The notes under the pieces are model-generated. The model did not search any database, had not been told where the DNA came from, and saw only the letters and a program-made list of their open reading frames with translations. A stretch of DNA of 18,089 nt from a bacterium 42_11 (GTDB lineage: Bacteria > Synergistota > GBS-1), in contig LGFB01000003.1 in NCBI GenBank assembly GCA_001508835.1, forward strand, positions 1 to 18,089, written 5' to 3'. This document shows, in pieces, positions 2,027 to 8,023 of this stretch. The first letter of the stretch is position 1. The number at the start of each line of letters is the position of its first letter. Made by a program: the position numbers and the translations under genes.

Positions 2027-2032
2027 AAAACT

Positions 2033-2068
2033 AAGGGGAGCCAAGGTTTTTGGCTCCCCTTAAACTTT
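2033..2068. terminator. bidirectional terminator hairpin between convergent units
   Basis: A perfect 12-bp stem, AAGGGGAGCCAA (2033-2044) against TTGGCTCCCCTT (2050-2061), encloses a 5-nt loop. It lies 6 bp after the hypD stop and 6 bp beyond the stop of the last gene of the opposing operon. The T-rich tail is short on both sides (AAACTTTTATTT on +, AGTTTTC on -), so it most likely serves both units. Confidence 0.85.
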
Positions 2069-2178
2069 TATTTAGACCTTGAAGCCCTCTTTTCCTCGGC
2101 TTCAAAAGATTTCTTTATACACCAACCAAGCCCTCCAAAAACGAGAAGCAACACTACGACCATCATCAAGACCCACAT
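2068..2178 (-). CDS. MetS-like small subunit of an NSS transporter (36 aa)
   Basis: This small gene starts 11 nt after the transporter stop, with GAGGTGAG in good ribosome-binding position before the ATG. It encodes 36 residues: MWVLMMVVVLLLVFGGLGW forms one hydrophobic helix (about residues 1-20), followed by a charged tail (KKSFEAEEKRASRSK). Short single-helix proteins placed directly after bacterial NSS symporters are known as MetS-type small subunits, required for Met/Ala uptake by MetP in Corynebacterium. Position, size, the GG in the helix and the basic C terminus all fit. It is the last gene of the operon and ends next to the shared terminator. Function is inferred from context and composition, because sequences this short carry little homology signal. 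Confidence 0.75.
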   Translation of the reverse strand: MWVLMMVVVLLLVFGGLGWCIKKSFEAEEKRASRSK

Positions 2179-2189
2179 CTATTCTCACC

Positions 2190-3644
2190 TCACTTCTTGG
2201 GATTACCCAGAGGCTTAACCCAGCTTGCAAGCTTATTGTTAAGGGCATAGATTATTATGAAAGCGATGGCCCACTGAAGCAGCATAGTTCCAACTGTATA
2301 GGTATACTTGCTTACAGGGAATACCTTATACCATTCTCCAGGATACCAAGTTATCGCCTGATATATCCACCATCCAACTATTATGAAGAACCAAACTGGG
2401 AACAGGTATATGAGTTTAAAAAGCCAAGGAGCATCGATATCAGAAACTGGGCGAATGTATTTCTCGTAAATCTCATTTACTCCCTTCTTCACGGCACCAT
2501 ACCAGAAGAACATTCCGCTTAAAAGTAATCCTACACCCCAGACCCAATCCTGGTTTTCAAGGATATATGCCTTGTAAGAAGAGGGTAAACCAAGAAGGGT
2601 AGTAACAACTCCAACGGCAAGTGCCGCCTTGGTGCGAGTCCAACCAGCATCTATTAAAACTCTTGTAGCAAGCTCAAGCATGGAAAGGAGAGAAGACAAA
2701 GCCGCGAATATCAACGCTAAGAAGAAGATAATAGCAACCACGGTTCCACCCGTCATTTGGGTAAACAGGTTTGTAAGATGGATAAAAGCAAGTCCGGTGT
2801 TCCCAGAACCTACCGCTTTCATCGGATCAGGGTGAAGAGCAAATATGGTGGGAATAATCGCCAAGGCTGCCAAAAGAGCGGCAGCAGTATCAGCAAAACA
2901 GGTTAAAGTACAGTTTAAAGCGATATCCTCATCATCCCTCGCATAAACGTAGTAAGTCAGAAGCAGGGCCCAGCCCGCTCCTGTAGACCAAGCCGCCTGC
3001 GTGAAAGCTTCAAGCCAAGTTTTACCCATTAAAAGCCTGTCCATATGAGGAGTAAACAAAAACTCAAGCCCCTTGGAAGCCCCTGGCAAAGTAACAGCCC
3101 TAACCATAAGTATAACCAGCATAACGAATAAAGAAGGGATCATTATTTTGTTAGCGAATTCAAGCCCCCTATTAACTCCCGCGAGAATTATTATGGTAGC
3201 AATGATCATAGATATAATATGGAACGTCATCATTTGAGAGGAAGAATTTACAAAGTTATTCCATAAAGACTCCGTATTAACCCCCGGCCTTATAACTCCG
3301 TTTAAAGCATACACAAAGTATCTAACACAATACCCCATAACCACAGCATAGTAGCAAGCAATAGCATAGGAAATCCACCCAACAAGACCACCCATCCAAG
3401 TATACTTTTCTCCTAAAAACTCCTTGAAGGACCCAATGACTCCCCTTCTTGTAGCCTTTCCCCAAACCGCCTCAGCCATAAGAAGAGGTATTGCCCAGAG
3501 GATGAAGGCTATGATATAAACCAGAACGAAAGAACCCCCACCGTTTGCAGCGCTTATTCTGGGGAAACGCCAAATATTACCGGTCCCCACAGCCATCCCT
3601 ATGGCTGACACAATGAGACCAAACCTACTACCCCATCTTTCCAT
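2190..3644 (-). CDS. NSS-family Na+-dependent amino acid symporter
   Basis: This is an inner-membrane sodium:amino acid symporter of the neurotransmitter:sodium symporter (LeuT/MhsT) family, 484 residues with about 11-12 hydrophobic segments. The family signature lies in TM1: GMAVGTGNIWRFPRISAANGGG carries the GNIWRFP core that forms part of the sodium and substrate sites. The start at 3644 is chosen because AAAGGAGGT lies 5 nt before this ATG and the protein begins MERWGSRFG, as family members do. A longer reading to 3695 would add about 17 polar residues without a comparable site. It follows the dehydrogenase genes after a 97-bp gap and precedes a MetS-like small subunit. The operon suggests it imports the amino or imino acid the complex oxidises (proline, hydroxyproline or similar), but the sequence alone does not fix the substrate. 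Confidence 0.9.
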   Translation of the reverse strand: MERWGSRFGLIVSAIGMAVGTGNIWRFPRISAANGGGSFVLVYIIAFILWAIPLLMAEAVWGKATRRGVIGSFKEFLGEKYTWMGGLVGWISYAIACYYAVVMGYCVRYFVYALNGVIRPGVNTESLWNNFVNSSSQMMTFHIISMIIATIIILAGVNRGLEFANKIMIPSLFVMLVILMVRAVTLPGASKGLEFLFTPHMDRLLMGKTWLEAFTQAAWSTGAGWALLLTYYVYARDDEDIALNCTLTCFADTAAALLAALAIIPTIFALHPDPMKAVGSGNTGLAFIHLTNLFTQMTGGTVVAIIFFLALIFAALSSLLSMLELATRVLIDAGWTRTKAALAVGVVTTLLGLPSSYKAYILENQDWVWGVGLLLSGMFFWYGAVKKGVNEIYEKYIRPVSDIDAPWLFKLIYLFPVWFFIIVGWWIYQAITWYPGEWYKVFPVSKYTYTVGTMLLQWAIAFIIIYALNNKLASWVKPLGNPKK

Positions 3645-3741
3645 GATGTTACCTCCTTTCCCTTGGGTTTCCACAAAGGACTCCCATAGACTCACAGCCT
3701 TAGCTTACAGCTACCACCCCCTTTCGAGAGAGAGGAAAGAT

Positions 3742-4884
3742 TTAAACCACTGCAGGCTCCCTTATAAGTTCCCCTCTTTGAAATCTTCTATAGCTGAGCA
3801 TATCAATGGGGATTGAAGTCTCTCCGCTCAAAATAAGCTCTGCCATGAGCTTTCCCGTTATAGGACCGAACATAAAACCGTGACCGCTAAAGCCCGCTGA
3901 AATATAAAAACCTTCAACCTCCTCAACCCTGCCCAAGATTGGCTGAGCGTCAGGAGACATCTCATAGGAACCAGCCCACTGTCTAACGACCCTTAAACCG
4001 CTCAAGCGGGGTAAAAGCCTTACGAACTTTCTTGCCATACCTTCGAGAAATTCCCACGTAGAGTTAAGAGCATGGGACTTAAGGTGTTCTTCCGGTCCGT
4101 AGCCCATGATGAAGCTACCGTGTGGTCTTTGCTGAATATAAAAGTTACCAGAAAATGACATCAACATAGGCTTTGAAACCCTCTCTATGGGCTCGGTAAC
4201 AAGTATCTCGTGTCGCTCAGGATATATGGGAATGTCCACTCCAGCAAAAGCTGCAACTTCCCTCGCATAGGGACCCGCACAGTTTACAACCACACCCGTC
4301 GATATAAATCCTCGATTAGTTCTAACCCCCCTAACTTTACCATTATTCACATCTATGCCAACAGCCTCGGTAAAACTGTAAATCTCAACACCGAGCCTTT
4401 TTGCAGCCTCGGCATAAGCGAAAGTAGTTAAAAGAGGGTCAGCATGTCCATCTCTATGGTGGTAGGTAAATCCAACCGCCCCCTCGGTATTTAAAAGGGG
4501 ACAAAGCTCCTTCGCCTCATCAGCTGAAATGACCCTCGACTTTATACCAAGGCTATTCTGAAGAGCCACGTTTCTTTTAAGCTGTTCAAACTCGCTTTCC
4601 CTGTAAGCTATCATGAGGTAACCGCCTTGATGCAAACCTATATCGGCTCCAAGCTCTTCTGAAAGGTTTTCAAATATCTCTATAGAAGCTATACCCAAGC
4701 GACAGTTCATCTCCGTCCCCCACTGCGCTCTTATTCCTGCAGCGCACCTACCGGTAGAACCGCTTGCTATAGTATTCTTCTCAAGAACGACAACATCCCT
4801 ACACCCCATTTTCGCAAGGTTATAGGCAACAGCGCACCCCTGAATACCGCCACCGATGATCACTACCTCAGCCGATCTCTTCAT
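3742..4884 (-). CDS. FAD-dependent amino/imino acid dehydrogenase, DAO family (PdhB/HcnC-like catalytic subunit)
   Basis: This 380-residue protein of the DAO/glycine-oxidase/sarcosine-oxidase-beta fold should oxidise the C-N bond of an imino or amino acid and pass electrons to its Fe-S partners. The FAD site is clear: GGGIQG at residues 11-16, acidic E35 at the end of strand 2 and SGSTGRCAAGIR at 41-52. The C-terminal SAGFSGHGFMFGP (about 329-341) is typical of the family. It starts 2 nt after the preceding gene, so they are translationally linked. In dye-linked L-proline dehydrogenase of Thermococcales (pdhAFXB) the beta subunit of this type carries the proline site, and Pseudomonas D-hydroxyproline dehydrogenase has a related subunit. 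Substrate could be L-proline, D-proline, cis-4-hydroxy-D-proline or sarcosine. The adjacent HypD and racemase homologue favour a proline derivative. Confidence 0.82.
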   Translation of the reverse strand: MKRSAEVVIIGGGIQGCAVAYNLAKMGCRDVVVLEKNTIASGSTGRCAAGIRAQWGTEMNCRLGIASIEIFENLSEELGADIGLHQGGYLMIAYRESEFEQLKRNVALQNSLGIKSRVISADEAKELCPLLNTEGAVGFTYHHRDGHADPLLTTFAYAEAAKRLGVEIYSFTEAVGIDVNNGKVRGVRTNRGFISTGVVVNCAGPYAREVAAFAGVDIPIYPERHEILVTEPIERVSKPMLMSFSGNFYIQQRPHGSFIMGYGPEEHLKSHALNSTWEFLEGMARKFVRLLPRLSGLRVVRQWAGSYEMSPDAQPILGRVEEVEGFYISAGFSGHGFMFGPITGKLMAELILSGETSIPIDMLSYRRFQRGELIREPAVV

Positions 4885-4886
4885 CC

Positions 4887-5165
4887 TTAATCATCCTCAC
4901 TTTCAGCAAGAACACCAAGCTTAATAGGTTTAATGGGAGGTCTAAAGGTAGGCATAGGGATTTCCTCCACCCTTTTACCTGTCAGGCGAGCTATTTCTCT
5001 TATTATCAGGTCTCTGCAAGTTCTACCTTGACAAGGCCCCATACCAGCGCGAGTAATCCTCTTTATCTCATCCACAGTGGTATAACCCCTTTTTATCAAT
5101 TCCCTTATCTCTTCAAGGGTAACATCTTCACACCTGCAAATTATTACATCCTTTTCTTTATTCAT
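4887..5165 (-). CDS. BFD-like [2Fe-2S] protein (PdhX-like subunit)
   Basis: A 92-residue protein containing a bacterioferritin-associated-ferredoxin-like (Fer2_BFD) domain. Its four cysteines are C10 and C12 (ICRCEDV) and C45 and C50 (GPCQGRTC), the CxC...CxxxxC pattern that binds one [2Fe-2S] cluster. A Pro-rich tail follows. The start overlaps the previous stop by 8 bp (ATGAATAA), indicating coupled translation. In proline dehydrogenase and in HcnB/NirB-type flavoproteins such domains transfer electrons between flavin subunits. Here it sits between the 4Fe-4S protein and the catalytic flavoprotein, which matches the F-X-B order of pdhAFXB clusters as I recall them. Confidence 0.85.
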   Translation of the reverse strand: MNKEKDVIICRCEDVTLEEIRELIKRGYTTVDEIKRITRAGMGPCQGRTCRDLIIREIARLTGKRVEEIPMPTFRPPIKPIKLGVLAESEDD

Positions 5166-5652
5166 CCTTCCTCACCACCCTCACATGCCTTACTTCCATC
5201 GCGAACTCCTTAGGAACAACGACAGAGACCACCTTCGTTCCATCCTTAAAAGGCTCAAAAACATGGATTACCTTTCCCTCACACACTACAACTCCTTCCC
5301 GGTTCAAACATTCAACAATCTCGTCTTTATTGGGAAGAGGGCGAAACTCATAAGGAATCTTGACTATAGCCTCCTTATCCGAATAGGTCATGTCCACAAC
5401 GAAAACAGCCAAACCCGGACATTTAGCAACACACAAGGCACATCCGGTACACTTGCTCCAATCCACCTTGGGAAGGTCATTTATGTCCTCAAACTCCAGT
5501 ATCGCCCCTGTGGGACATGCCGTATGACAGGGGTCACACGGAATCCTTTGGAAACACTCCACTATTACAACGGGCTTTGAATTTAAAATCTCCTGAGGAG
5601 GTGTTACCCCCCTTATCTGTTCACGGGTAGGAACACCTGTCCTTTCAAGCAT
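5158..5652 (-). CDS. 2x[4Fe-4S] ferredoxin-type subunit (PdhF-like)
   Basis: A 164-residue electron-transfer protein. Two four-cysteine groups are visible: C33, C39, C42 and C46 (last followed by Pro), and C68, C71, C74 and C78 in CTGCALCVAKCPG, so it can hold two [4Fe-4S] clusters. About 85 residues of beta-rich sequence without cysteines follow. I choose the ATG at 5652 because GGGGGAGG lies 9 nt upstream and the overlap with the preceding gene is then 8 bp. An upstream TTG at 5673 would add seven residues without a good ribosome binding site. It most likely carries electrons from the flavin subunits toward a ferredoxin or quinone-level acceptor. It is absent from simple HcnABC-like enzymes but present in archaeal proline dehydrogenase clusters. 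Confidence 0.83.
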   Translation of the reverse strand: MLERTGVPTREQIRGVTPPQEILNSKPVVIVECFQRIPCDPCHTACPTGAILEFEDINDLPKVDWSKCTGCALCVAKCPGLAVFVVDMTYSDKEAIVKIPYEFRPLPNKDEIVECLNREGVVVCEGKVIHVFEPFKDGTKVVSVVVPKEFAMEVRHVRVVRKDE

Positions 5653-6751
5653 GCCTATACGCCTCCCCCACAATAGCTTTAGGAAGCCCCTGCCTTATCT
5701 TTTCCGTTACCGGTCCTTTTCTCAAGCTATCAAGCTGTTCCCAGAAAGCATTAAATTTCTCTTCAAAATCGGGTATATCATACCCCAAGCTTTTAGCTGC
5801 ACAAAGCCCTGCTATTTTACCCTCTATCATCGCCGTAGAAGCCTCTTCTATCGCAGCAGCGTCGCCAGCCACATAAAAATCGGGATGAGAAGTTCTCATT
5901 TCCCTATCTCTTACGGGAACGTAACCACCAAGCTCGGGAATATATCTCATCTCACATCCTGCCTGCCATAAAAGCTCGATCAAAGGAGATAGGCCAACCG
6001 CAAGACAAATAAGGTCAGCCTCTATATGTTTTTCGGTGCCCTCTACTGGTTCCCATCTCTCATTTACCTGAACAATGGTTGCTCCTTCTACATATTCCTT
6101 CCCGTGTATCTCCTTTATTGTATGAGAGGTATATATAGGTATACCTATTCTTCTTATCTTCGAAGCATGAACCCAATAACCACCTATTTTAGGCATAGCC
6201 TCCACAACCGCTTGGACCTTAACCCCTGCCTGAGCAAGCTGATAACTCACTATAAGGCCAATATTTCCCGCTCCGACCATCAAGGCCCTCTCACCAGGCT
6301 TAACACCGTAGACATTCATCAGGGTCTGGACAGCTCCAGCACCATAAACACCGGGAAGGTCACAGTTTGGCACAGGTATAGTTCTCTCATAGGCACCCGT
6401 TGCAACTATCGTTTTTTTAGGCTTTACCTTAAAGTACTTCTCTTCTCCCGTGAGAGCTCCAAAAACGCCGTCATCGGCGTAGTAACCCGTAACCGTTGTA
6501 TTCGTTATGGCCTCAAATCTATCCCCGGATTTTTCAAGCTCGCTAAGCAGGATTTCCGCTATCTTAAAGCCTCTTGTTCCCGCATATTCTTCCTTAGAAC
6601 CAAAGAATTTATGGGTCTGCTTTATTAGCTGACCGCCAAGCTTAAGTCCATCATCTATCAAAAGAACCTTTGCCCCCGCCTTGACCGCCTCTATCGCCGC
6701 GCTTAATCCCGCCGGGCCACCGCCCACAATCAATATTTCCGTTTCCTTCAA
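5645..6751 (-). CDS. FAD/NAD(P)-type oxidoreductase subunit (PdhA C-terminal/HcnB-like)
   Basis: This 368-residue flavoprotein has two dinucleotide-binding folds: GGGPAG at residues 10-15 for FAD and GAGNIG at 160-165 for a second nucleotide. The ATGAYERTIP segment (117-126) and a C-terminal YVAGDAAAIEEAS segment (about 292-304) complete the pyridine-nucleotide-disulfide-oxidoreductase pattern. HcnB, the alpha subunit of proline dehydrogenase and sarcosine oxidase alpha share this module. The start is a TTG whose TTGA overlaps the upstream stop, with GGGTGAG 5 nt before it. With the separate 103-residue 2Fe-2S protein upstream it reconstitutes the composition of a longer alpha subunit, so the subunit appears split here. 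It probably takes electrons to or from NAD(P) or a dye-reactive site; it is not itself the proline-binding subunit. Confidence 0.84.
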   Translation of the reverse strand: MKETEILIVGGGPAGLSAAIEAVKAGAKVLLIDDGLKLGGQLIKQTHKFFGSKEEYAGTRGFKIAEILLSELEKSGDRFEAITNTTVTGYYADDGVFGALTGEEKYFKVKPKKTIVATGAYERTIPVPNCDLPGVYGAGAVQTLMNVYGVKPGERALMVGAGNIGLIVSYQLAQAGVKVQAVVEAMPKIGGYWVHASKIRRIGIPIYTSHTIKEIHGKEYVEGATIVQVNERWEPVEGTEKHIEADLICLAVGLSPLIELLWQAGCEMRYIPELGGYVPVRDREMRTSHPDFYVAGDAAAIEEASTAMIEGKIAGLCAAKSLGYDIPDFEEKFNAFWEQLDSLRKGPVTEKIRQGLPKAIVGEAYRHA

Positions 6752-7059
6752 CGTATCTCACCCTTTCCCATCTGAGTCTGAACTCTCATCCCTTCCCTAA
6801 GAGGTGTGATACAAACTCTAACATTAGGGACTCCATTTACGATCATGAAGCAAGAGGAACATTTGCCAACGGCACAGAAAAATCCCCGCGGTCTGCCCAA
6901 CCCTATGCTCCTTCGGTAAACCTTGATGCCATTCGCATGAAGAGCTGCAGCTATAGGTTCTCCTTCATATCCCTCATACTCTTTACCATCCACATAAAAC
7001 TTAACTTTCCTGCCATGCTTAAAACTTAGAATAGGGTGTTCCTTTATCCATCCCCCCAT
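6748..7059 (-). CDS. HcnA-like [2Fe-2S] ferredoxin subunit
   Basis: A 103-residue protein of the plant-type 2Fe-2S fold found in HcnA, opine and hydroxyproline dehydrogenase small subunits and the N-terminal part of sarcosine oxidase alpha. Key cysteines are C62, C67, C70 and C83, in GRPRGFFCAVGKCSSC followed by NGVPNVRVC; the GRPRG-FCAVG-C core is diagnostic. It is the first structural gene of the minus-strand operon. AAGGGGTGG precedes the ATG at 7059, and its stop overlaps the next start by 4 bp. It should relay single electrons between the flavins of the complex. A long leader with a small ORF and a hairpin lies upstream. Confidence 0.88.
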   Translation of the reverse strand: MGGWIKEHPILSFKHGRKVKFYVDGKEYEGYEGEPIAAALHANGIKVYRRSIGLGRPRGFFCAVGKCSSCFMIVNGVPNVRVCITPLREGMRVQTQMGKGEIR

Positions 7060-7094: not shown

Positions 7095-7120
7095 AGTGGG
7101 AGGGATTTCTCTCTCCCACT
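7095..7120 (-). promoter_or_regulatory. leader hairpin, possible attenuator upstream of the dehydrogenase operon
   Basis: Read on the minus strand, AGTGGGAGAGA pairs with TCCCTCCCACT (11 pairs, one of them G-T) around a 4-nt loop, followed by AACATTTTAAAT. It lies 35 nt before the start of the first structural gene and 16 nt after the stop of the leader ORF. The T-tract is weak, so it may be a regulated terminator, an RNA-stability hairpin or a partial terminator. Confidence 0.6.
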
Positions 7121-7136
7121 ATGAACTTTCTCGATA

Positions 7137-7229
7137 TTACACTTTTTCACAAGAAAATGGTAAAGATGGCATAGCTGGCATGTCAGGGTAAGAATAGATT
7201 AAAGCTAAACCTAACGAAAGAGACAGCAT
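7137..7229 (-). CDS. putative 30-residue Pro-rich leader peptide
   Basis: A small ORF sits inside the leader of the dehydrogenase operon. GGAGGAG lies 6 nt before the ATG at 7229, an excellent ribosome binding site. The product begins MLSLSLGLALIYSY (hydrophobic) and continues PDMPAMPSLP, with four Pro codons (one CCT, three CCA) among residues 15-24, then FSCEKV and a TAA. The hairpin at 7095-7120 begins 16 nt past the stop, the usual layout of an attenuator leader peptide or a TnaC-like arrest peptide. I do not recognise it as a known family. The Pro-rich stretch in front of genes for proline-type metabolism suggests sensing of proline, hydroxyproline or Pro-tRNA. It could be a chance ORF; the ribosome binding site argues otherwise. 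Confidence 0.5.
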   Translation of the reverse strand: MLSLSLGLALIYSYPDMPAMPSLPFSCEKV

Positions 7230-7287
7230 TCCCATCTCCTCCAAGAAAATCAATGGCTCTCTAAAATAACATCCCTCCCTGAAGTTA

Positions 7288-7316
7288 AGTTTATATCAAC
7301 AAATTATCCTTGTCAA
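7288..7316 (-). promoter_or_regulatory. sigma-70-type promoter of the dehydrogenase/transporter operon
   Basis: On the minus strand TTGACA (7316-7311) is followed after 17 nt by TAAACT (7293-7288), or after 15 nt by TATAAA (7295-7290). Transcription would start near 7281-7283 and give a leader of about 220 nt before the first structural gene. Confidence 0.65.
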
Positions 7317-7420
7317 GCACTTTAACAAATTTGTAAAAATTAATGATTAAAAGCAAAAGCTTATCCTAAAGTCATTTAAAAAAATTTATTTACTTCATTC
7401 CATACGCCTTTCAAATCTGC

Positions 7421-7450: not shown

Positions 7451-8023
7451 ATGGATGTAAAAAAGGCTATTGAAGAAAGGAGAGCCTATAGGTCACTCGA
7501 TAAGGTAGAGATATCCTTAGAAACTTTGGCCGATTTAGCCAAATGCGCGTCTCTTGCTCCTTCCTGTTTCAACAATCAACCTTGGAGATTCGTTTTTGTA
7601 ACTAAAGAAGAAAATCTTCTGGCAATGAGAGAAGCCCTATCCAAAGGAAACGAATGGGCTTATGATGCCTCAGCCTTTATAGCTGTCTGTAGCAAGCCCG
7701 ACCTCGATTGCAACCTTAAAGATGGGAGGCAATATTATGCCTTCGATGTAGGCATGTCAGTAGGGCTCCTTATGCTCAGAGCAACGGAACTTGGCTTGGT
7801 AGCCCATCCCATTGCAGGATATTCGCCAGAGAAGGTAAAAGAAATTCTTAACATACCACCAGAATACGAAGTTATAACTCTTATAATACTTGGGAAACAC
7901 TCCAGCGAAATAAAACCATCTTTGACAGAGAAACAGGTCCTGGCAGAAAAGGAAAGGCCCGCTCGCTTACCTATGGAAGAATTTGCCTTCTTAGATAGCT
8001 TTGGAACTCCCTTTAAAAAATGA
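7451..8023 (+). CDS. nitroreductase-family FMN protein
   Basis: A 190-residue protein of the nitroreductase (NfsB/FRase I-like) fold, which binds FMN and reduces nitroaromatics, quinones or other acceptors with NAD(P)H. The N-terminal ERRAYR (residues 9-14) is the phosphate-binding Arg pair of the family, followed by LAPSCFNNQPWRFVFV, the conserved P-S--N-QPW-F block around residues 36-51. GLVAHPIAGYSPEKVKEIL and a TLIILGK segment match the C-terminal half. It starts after GGAGGTGAT and its stop overlaps the start of the metal ATPase by 4 bp, so the two are translationally coupled. The physiological substrate cannot be deduced. The pairing suggests a role in metal or redox stress, or simple co-expression. 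Confidence 0.85.
   Translation: MDVKKAIEERRAYRSLDKVEISLETLADLAKCASLAPSCFNNQPWRFVFVTKEENLLAMREALSKGNEWAYDASAFIAVCSKPDLDCNLKDGRQYYAFDVGMSVGLLMLRATELGLVAHPIAGYSPEKVKEILNIPPEYEVITLIILGKHSSEIKPSLTEKQVLAEKERPARLPMEEFAFLDSFGTPFKK

Follow-up and report, generated by a model that had tools for sequence, protein, structure and literature searches.

A leader open reading frame kept by position and a covarying hairpin, with a drifting peptide, ahead of a proline/hydroxyproline-type dehydrogenase operon

On the minus strand of the window (the whole 18,089-nucleotide stretch of DNA analysed here), a short open reading frame (ORF) with four evenly spaced Pro codons and a hairpin precede an operon of proline dehydrogenase type, which raises the question whether the operon is switched by ribosomes at those codons, as the first-pass annotation proposed, or by another property of its leader. 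Comparison with two related leaders points to an attenuator-like leader that would act independently of the peptide's sequence, a reading to which we give a rough probability of 45%, the regulation itself being a prediction.

According to its open reading frames and Pfam matches, the operon comprises six minus-strand genes running from 7059 down to 2190. These genes and the features at the operon's 3′ end are:

6748..7059, minus strand: first operon gene, a Fer2_4 [2Fe-2S] subunit (PF13510), starting at 7059
5645..6751, minus strand: dehydrogenase subunit, Pyr_redox_2 (PF07992)
5158..5673, minus strand: 4Fe-4S ferredoxin subunit (PF00037)
4887..5165, minus strand: BFD-like [2Fe-2S] subunit (PF04324, PF17806)
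3742..4884, minus strand: catalytic subunit with FAD, DAO family (PF01266)
2190..3695, minus strand: symporter, sodium:neurotransmitter type (PF00209)
2068..2178, minus strand: 36-codon ORF 3′ of the transporter, conserved in both relatives
2027..2060, minus strand: hairpin followed by AGTTTT at the operon's 3′ end, read by eye and used as a yardstick for terminators of the lineage

The make-up of a dye-linked L-proline dehydrogenase operon is present, with a DAO-type catalytic subunit alongside Pyr_redox, [2Fe-2S] and ferredoxin-type partners. The best solved relative of the FAD subunit is 1y56_B (E = 1.5e-95), which was deposited as sarcosine oxidase and which we take to be the P. horikoshii L-proline dehydrogenase. 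Convergent with the operon lies a gene that by similarity encodes a 4-hydroxyproline dehydratase (6vxc, E = 3.7e-249); its score against NCBIfam NF043068 is 1012.8 bits, below the cut-off of 1100, and the match begins at profile position 123, presumably because the contig begins inside the gene. Further along lies a proline racemase-family gene (NF010576, 566 bits; cut-off 556). An excerpt of PMC4575208 cites the structure paper on P. horikoshii L-proline dehydrogenase, and counts archaeal L-proline dehydrogenase, D-hydroxyproline dehydrogenase and HCN synthase as kin of opine dehydrogenase. Overall, the Pfam families and structural relatives agree with the operon type assigned earlier, and the predicted proline or hydroxyproline context is well founded, more so than any precise substrate.

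From the palindrome to the hairpin ahead of the first gene, the leader region contains the following elements, in the direction of transcription:

7321..7337, minus strand: palindrome TTTACAAATTTGTTAAA, a candidate operator that adjoins the -35 hexamer on its upstream side
7288..7316, minus strand: putative sigma-70-like promoter, TTGACA-17-TAAACT, from which the transcription start is inferred
7271..7279, minus strand: GGGAGGGAT, close to where the transcript is predicted to begin, a perfect 9-nt complement of ATCCCTCCC in the hairpin (7106-7098)
7236..7242, minus strand: Shine-Dalgarno (SD) sequence GGAGGAG of the leader ORF, with a duplex energy of -9.3 kcal/mol
7137..7229, minus strand: leader ORF of 30 codons, four of them Pro; its start is placed alike in two relatives and its peptide is not kept
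7095..7120, minus strand: terminator-like hairpin AGTGGGAGAGAGAAATCCCTCCCACT with tail AACATTTTAA; -14.7 kcal/mol, with covariation across three leaders

The promoter-like site (TTGACA at 7316, a 17-nt spacer and TAAACT ending at 7288) matches 10 of 12 consensus positions and is the best of five such sites between 6500 and 8000 on both strands, where shuffled sequences yield a mean of 2.5 (sd 1.4). The leader ORF begins at the ATG at 7229, the better start because an upstream ATG at 7235 lies only two bases past the GGAGG core, and ends with a stop at 7139-7137; its putative peptide is MLSLSLGLALIYSYPDMPAMPSLPFSCEKV, with Pro at residues 15, 18, 21 and 24. The hairpin starts 16 nt past this stop. 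The promoter, strong SD, 30-codon ORF, Pro positions and hairpin spacing described by the first-pass annotation are thus all in the sequence, as are the hairpin and its short T-rich tail, but the stem given as 11 bp has 10 of its 11 positions paired.

The genome's family is represented by four genomes, in which three leaders of the operon were found: that of the window (G000), that of G001, a member of the same genus whose first gene is 91% identical, and that of G003 in another genus (first gene 85% identical; the same locus as L036, bacterium GBS-1). The copy in G002 was left out of the count because it lies inside a longer operon and lacks a leader of its own. The promoter-like site, the ATG ORF with its SD and the hairpin follow one another in identical order in all three. 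Shared across their alignment are the palindrome, the promoter's CTTGAC, an SD with an ATG after it, a hairpin with the 3′ arm CCCTCCC and, ahead of the gene, an A/T-rich stretch and then GGGGTG.

Three side observations concern the operon's surroundings. The 36-codon ORF directly after the symporter has a hydrophobic first half and matches no Pfam family at its cut-off; such transporters have a small MetS-type subunit, whose position this ORF presumably occupies. In G001 the symporter gene (L085:11160-12284) is split across three open frames, as if broken or misassembled. A divergent nitroreductase gene (7451-8023, plus strand) borders the same intergenic region in G000 and G001, and has no match within the G003 stretch.

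Whether the leader ORF is a chance reading frame, so that the promoter and hairpin alone matter, was assessed with a strict rule: an ATG, 12-45 codons, an end before the gene and an SD at or below -8.4 kcal/mol, a threshold set afterwards at the weakest of the three leaders (-9.3, -9.1 and -8.4 kcal/mol for the window, G001 and G003). Dinucleotide shuffles satisfy this rule in 38 (window), 40 and 18 of 2000 cases, or about 1-2% each, and the same rule finds no leader ORF in 36 control leaders of the same first gene elsewhere. These controls have at least 180 nt in which no stop-to-stop frame reaches 80 codons, include other phyla and have redundancy left in; they go back to 40 further upstream stretches of the first gene, which cover a part of the matching places and leave out L181-L184. 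Looser rules do recover leader ORFs among the controls, in 2 of 36 when up to 60 codons and gene overlap are allowed (L020, L054), in 5 of 36 with any start codon, and in 6 of 36 with any start codon, at least 8 codons and an SD of -7. A chance frame would also fit the lack of peptide conservation described below, and the best SD-like site taken alone is ordinary in all three leaders (p = 0.175, 0.13 and 0.15), being in G001 and G003 the GGGAGGG of the hairpin itself. Nevertheless, a chance ORF is improbable because the combination of SD and ATG recurs three times at the same place; by these sequence statistics the putative leader is in excess of chance, with only three leaders and post hoc thresholds behind the figure.

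Two further candidate leader features were dropped. An extra SD in leaders throughout the phylum was rejected, since 6 of 53 leaders reached p ≤ 0.05. In another genus, L018, L020 and L022 have in common a GTG leader ORF that starts VLPI.SCP and extends to the start region of the gene; it was not retained as a second conserved leader peptide, being absent from L148 of the same genus, and most of its changes are not codon-like by eye.

The hairpin is conserved as a structure. It begins 16, 23 and 3 nt past the ORF stop in the three leaders, with energies of -14.7, -20.4 and -33.1 kcal/mol and with the tails AACATTTTAA, ACTTATTTTA and, after an 18-bp stem that includes the first bases of the run, TTATTG. 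When the three hairpins are aligned, 97% of cells are paired and 3 of the 11 pairs have changed on both sides; none has in any of the six slid versions, and 12 of 500 shuffles reach the observed level. The number of further pair types, by contrast, is unremarkable (180 of 500 shuffles). The T-tracts are short, and the leader hairpin resembles a terminator of this lineage because the gene-end hairpins between the transporter operon and the dehydratase carry similarly short T runs in the same three genomes (by eye). A terminator-type hairpin thus stands before the first gene in each leader, with termination there putative.

The peptide behaves differently. The three putative peptides, MLSLSLGLALIYSYPDMPAMPSLPFSCEKV, MLFVLCVFDESPLL (G001) and MDYNPGVPGRLNAQQLNR (G003), have 30, 14 and 18 codons and 4, 1 and 2 Pro at unrelated places. 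Their local alignments hold 2 identities in 13 positions (G000-G001) and 2 in 4 for each of the other pairs, against 24 of 32, 29 of 34 and 19 of 30 for the 36-codon ORF after the transporter, which served as a positive control in the same genomes; since the method detects conservation in a peptide that small, the leader peptide is not conserved, even within the genus. Drift affects the whole leader, its short elements excepted, and is not directed at the peptide: G000 and G001 are identical at 25 of 42 aligned nucleotides in the ORF and at 32 of 61 between the -10 box and the ORF, so that identity is no lower inside the ORF than outside. Moreover, searching the genomes in six frames for the peptide (E up to 10) found no convincing relative in 60 relatives (best outside match, E = 0.022); 21 of 61 genomes, its own included, gave a match, none of which adjoins the operon's first gene. 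A DNA search with the whole leader found no match in the 60 relatives or in plasmids. Rfam at gathering thresholds (window, L006 and L007) returned only one tRNA gene each in the window and L006, and therefore no known riboswitch or T-box at threshold. Comparison of the leaders therefore shows that the placement of the ORF start and of the hairpin is kept, that the hairpin covaries and that the peptide is not conserved.

These results bear directly on the proposal that the leader is a Pro-codon attenuator or an arrest peptide dependent on proline or hydroxyproline, in which ribosomes stalling in the Pro cluster would switch the operon. The operon type fits this proposal, each of the three peptides has at least one Pro, and the window's peptide is itself unusual: at least four Pro in 30 open codons occur in 2.6% of 2260 open shuffled frames, and the spacing PxxPxxPxxP, a pattern picked after being seen, occurs in none of them. 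But the cluster is absent in G001 (1 Pro in 14 codons, matched by 45% of shuffled frames) and G003 (2 in 18, matched by 24%), no two Pro are adjacent, and limitation for Pro would presumably be a signal of the wrong sense for a catabolic operon. The comparison of relatives suggested earlier came out divided, with the SD, ATG placement and hairpin kept and the Pro cluster and peptide lost; the loss of the Pro codons among close relatives, named in the first-pass annotation as grounds for abandoning its proposal, counts against the Pro peptide and not against the leader as such.

Model calculations of folding extend this contrast. The fold of the whole window leader is mildly better than that of its shuffles (z = -1.84; 9 of 200 as good). 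When a model ribosome masks each leader codon in turn on the transcript up to the hairpin, the hairpin of the window forms with a probability of 0.00-0.25 for codons 2-20 and of 0.12-0.84 for later ones; it is 0.00 at Pro15 and Pro18 and partly restored at Pro21 (0.37) and Pro24 (0.50), a point in favour of a Pro-codon switch. In G001, however, the hairpin stays at or above 0.91 at all 15 positions (0.91 at its Pro codon), and in G003 at or above 0.93 except at the last three (0.76, 0.58 and 0.41), with 0.97 at both Pro codons. A model ribosome on the Pro codons thus leaves the hairpin formed in both relatives, and the window's response arises because of the 9-nt complement between 7279-7271 and 7106-7098, which they lack. 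The stretch of G001 that pairs best with the 5′ arm of the hairpin does contain its one Pro codon, though that pairing is ordinary (115 of 500 shuffles). Taken together with the drift of the peptide, these calculations make switching at Pro codons decidedly unlikely, and proline sensing by the leader peptide, found in one genome only, is not supported by the comparison.

The same complement suggests a species-specific RNA switch, in which GGGAGGGAT at the 5′ end would pair with the 3′ arm of the hairpin and disarm the terminator, the ribosome on the leader ORF picking the fold. A perfect complement of this length to ATCCCTCCC arises in 19 of 2000 shuffles, and the minimum free energy (MFE) structure of the transcript up to the hairpin uses the pairing and displaces the hairpin. 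Yet a longer transcript, to 7055, keeps the local hairpin in both its MFE and centroid structures, its 5′ end pairing elsewhere; G001 and G003 have corresponding complements of at most 4 and 6 nt, leaving the switch to one genome; CCCTCCC would pair with any SD-like purine run; and the energies hold for 37 °C and leave out kinetics. This reading is highly improbable. Further, an antiterminator pairing with the 5′ arm was rejected, its pairing being no better than chance: perfect complements are 5, 4 and 4 nt long in the three leaders, and of 500 shuffles each, 268, 115 and 247 do as well as the best duplexes (-11.1, -13.7 and -10.7). With no upstream partner of the 5′ arm above chance in any leader and an alternative fold in the window only, no shared antiterminator scheme is seen. 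A broader version would have a ribosome-controlled attenuator for proline or hydroxyproline catabolism in which the ORF's place and the hairpin are fixed while each species evolves sensing codons and a competing pairing of its own, the window's species having a Pro-codon switch that trades the 9-bp 5′-to-3′ pairing against the terminator hairpin; we consider it highly improbable.

The palindrome that precedes the -35 hexamer is suggestive of ordinary operator control, which could be a rival or a partner of the leader. As a rival, a transcription factor on the palindrome would regulate the operon, and the leader ORF and hairpin would only tune mRNA stability or the basal level. In G001, 16 of the 17 positions of the palindrome TTTACAAATTTGTTAAA are unchanged, compared with 16 of 33 over the remaining stretch down to the -10 box, and the palindrome stands directly before the promoter there too, as it does in G003 with two mismatches to the pattern. 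Against this, the candidate site has no assigned regulator, and the pattern is not rare because, with two mismatches allowed, it has 7, 4, 3 and 5 matches in the four genomes (3, 0, 1 and 2 for its reversed control). Operator control would also leave the covariation and the terminator form of the hairpin unexplained, and as the whole explanation it is somewhat unlikely.

The attenuator-like leader that we favour would work as follows. Soon after initiation, ribosomes would translate a short ORF with a strong ribosome-binding site; between it and the first gene comes a GC hairpin like those at the lineage's gene ends. Leader translation or RNA folding would probably decide what share of transcripts gets past the hairpin. 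The signal would be absent from the peptide's amino-acid sequence, or carried there only in a lineage-specific manner. Both the leader ORF and the hairpin are kept in the three leaders, with a putative link between them, and the amino-acid content is not. If this is correct, proline or hydroxyproline catabolism would here be controlled through a leader ORF that is kept by position, its peptide being free to change. Among the matches listed from the open-licence literature, judged by title and the start of the abstract, no described leader peptide of proline or hydroxyproline catabolism was found, in agreement with the first-pass annotation. As things stand, the locus serves mainly as a caution: an eye-catching amino-acid cluster seen in one leader peptide can be lost between members of the same genus.

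Among known systems, the mgtP leader ORF of Salmonella mgtCBR resembles this one: it too is short, contains Pro codons, has an SD of its own and lies in an operon leader beside stem-loops; as described in an excerpt of PMC3641672, it has three consecutive Pro codons that are conserved in other species and required for the response to proline limitation, and its stem-loops were tested by mutation. Here, unlike mgtP, the Pro codons are unconserved and none are adjacent, and the alternative pairing occurs in the window only. TnaC of the tryptophanase operon likewise precedes an amino-acid catabolic operon, and according to an excerpt of PMC10941005 it needs the conserved residues W12, D16, I19 and P24 and works by keeping Rho off. 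The present leader, unlike TnaC, has no conserved residues and an intrinsic-type hairpin instead. The conserved residues or codons that define TnaC and mgtP have no counterpart among the three leaders compared. Attenuators of the trp and his type consist of a promoter, a leader ORF, a terminator-like hairpin and the structural genes. The leader differs from them in that no run of control codons is kept between species and the hairpin's 5′ arm has no partner above chance, and is like them in its order of parts; the general feature of a leader attenuator, an ORF kept by position with its SD and putatively translated, is found in all three leaders of the family.
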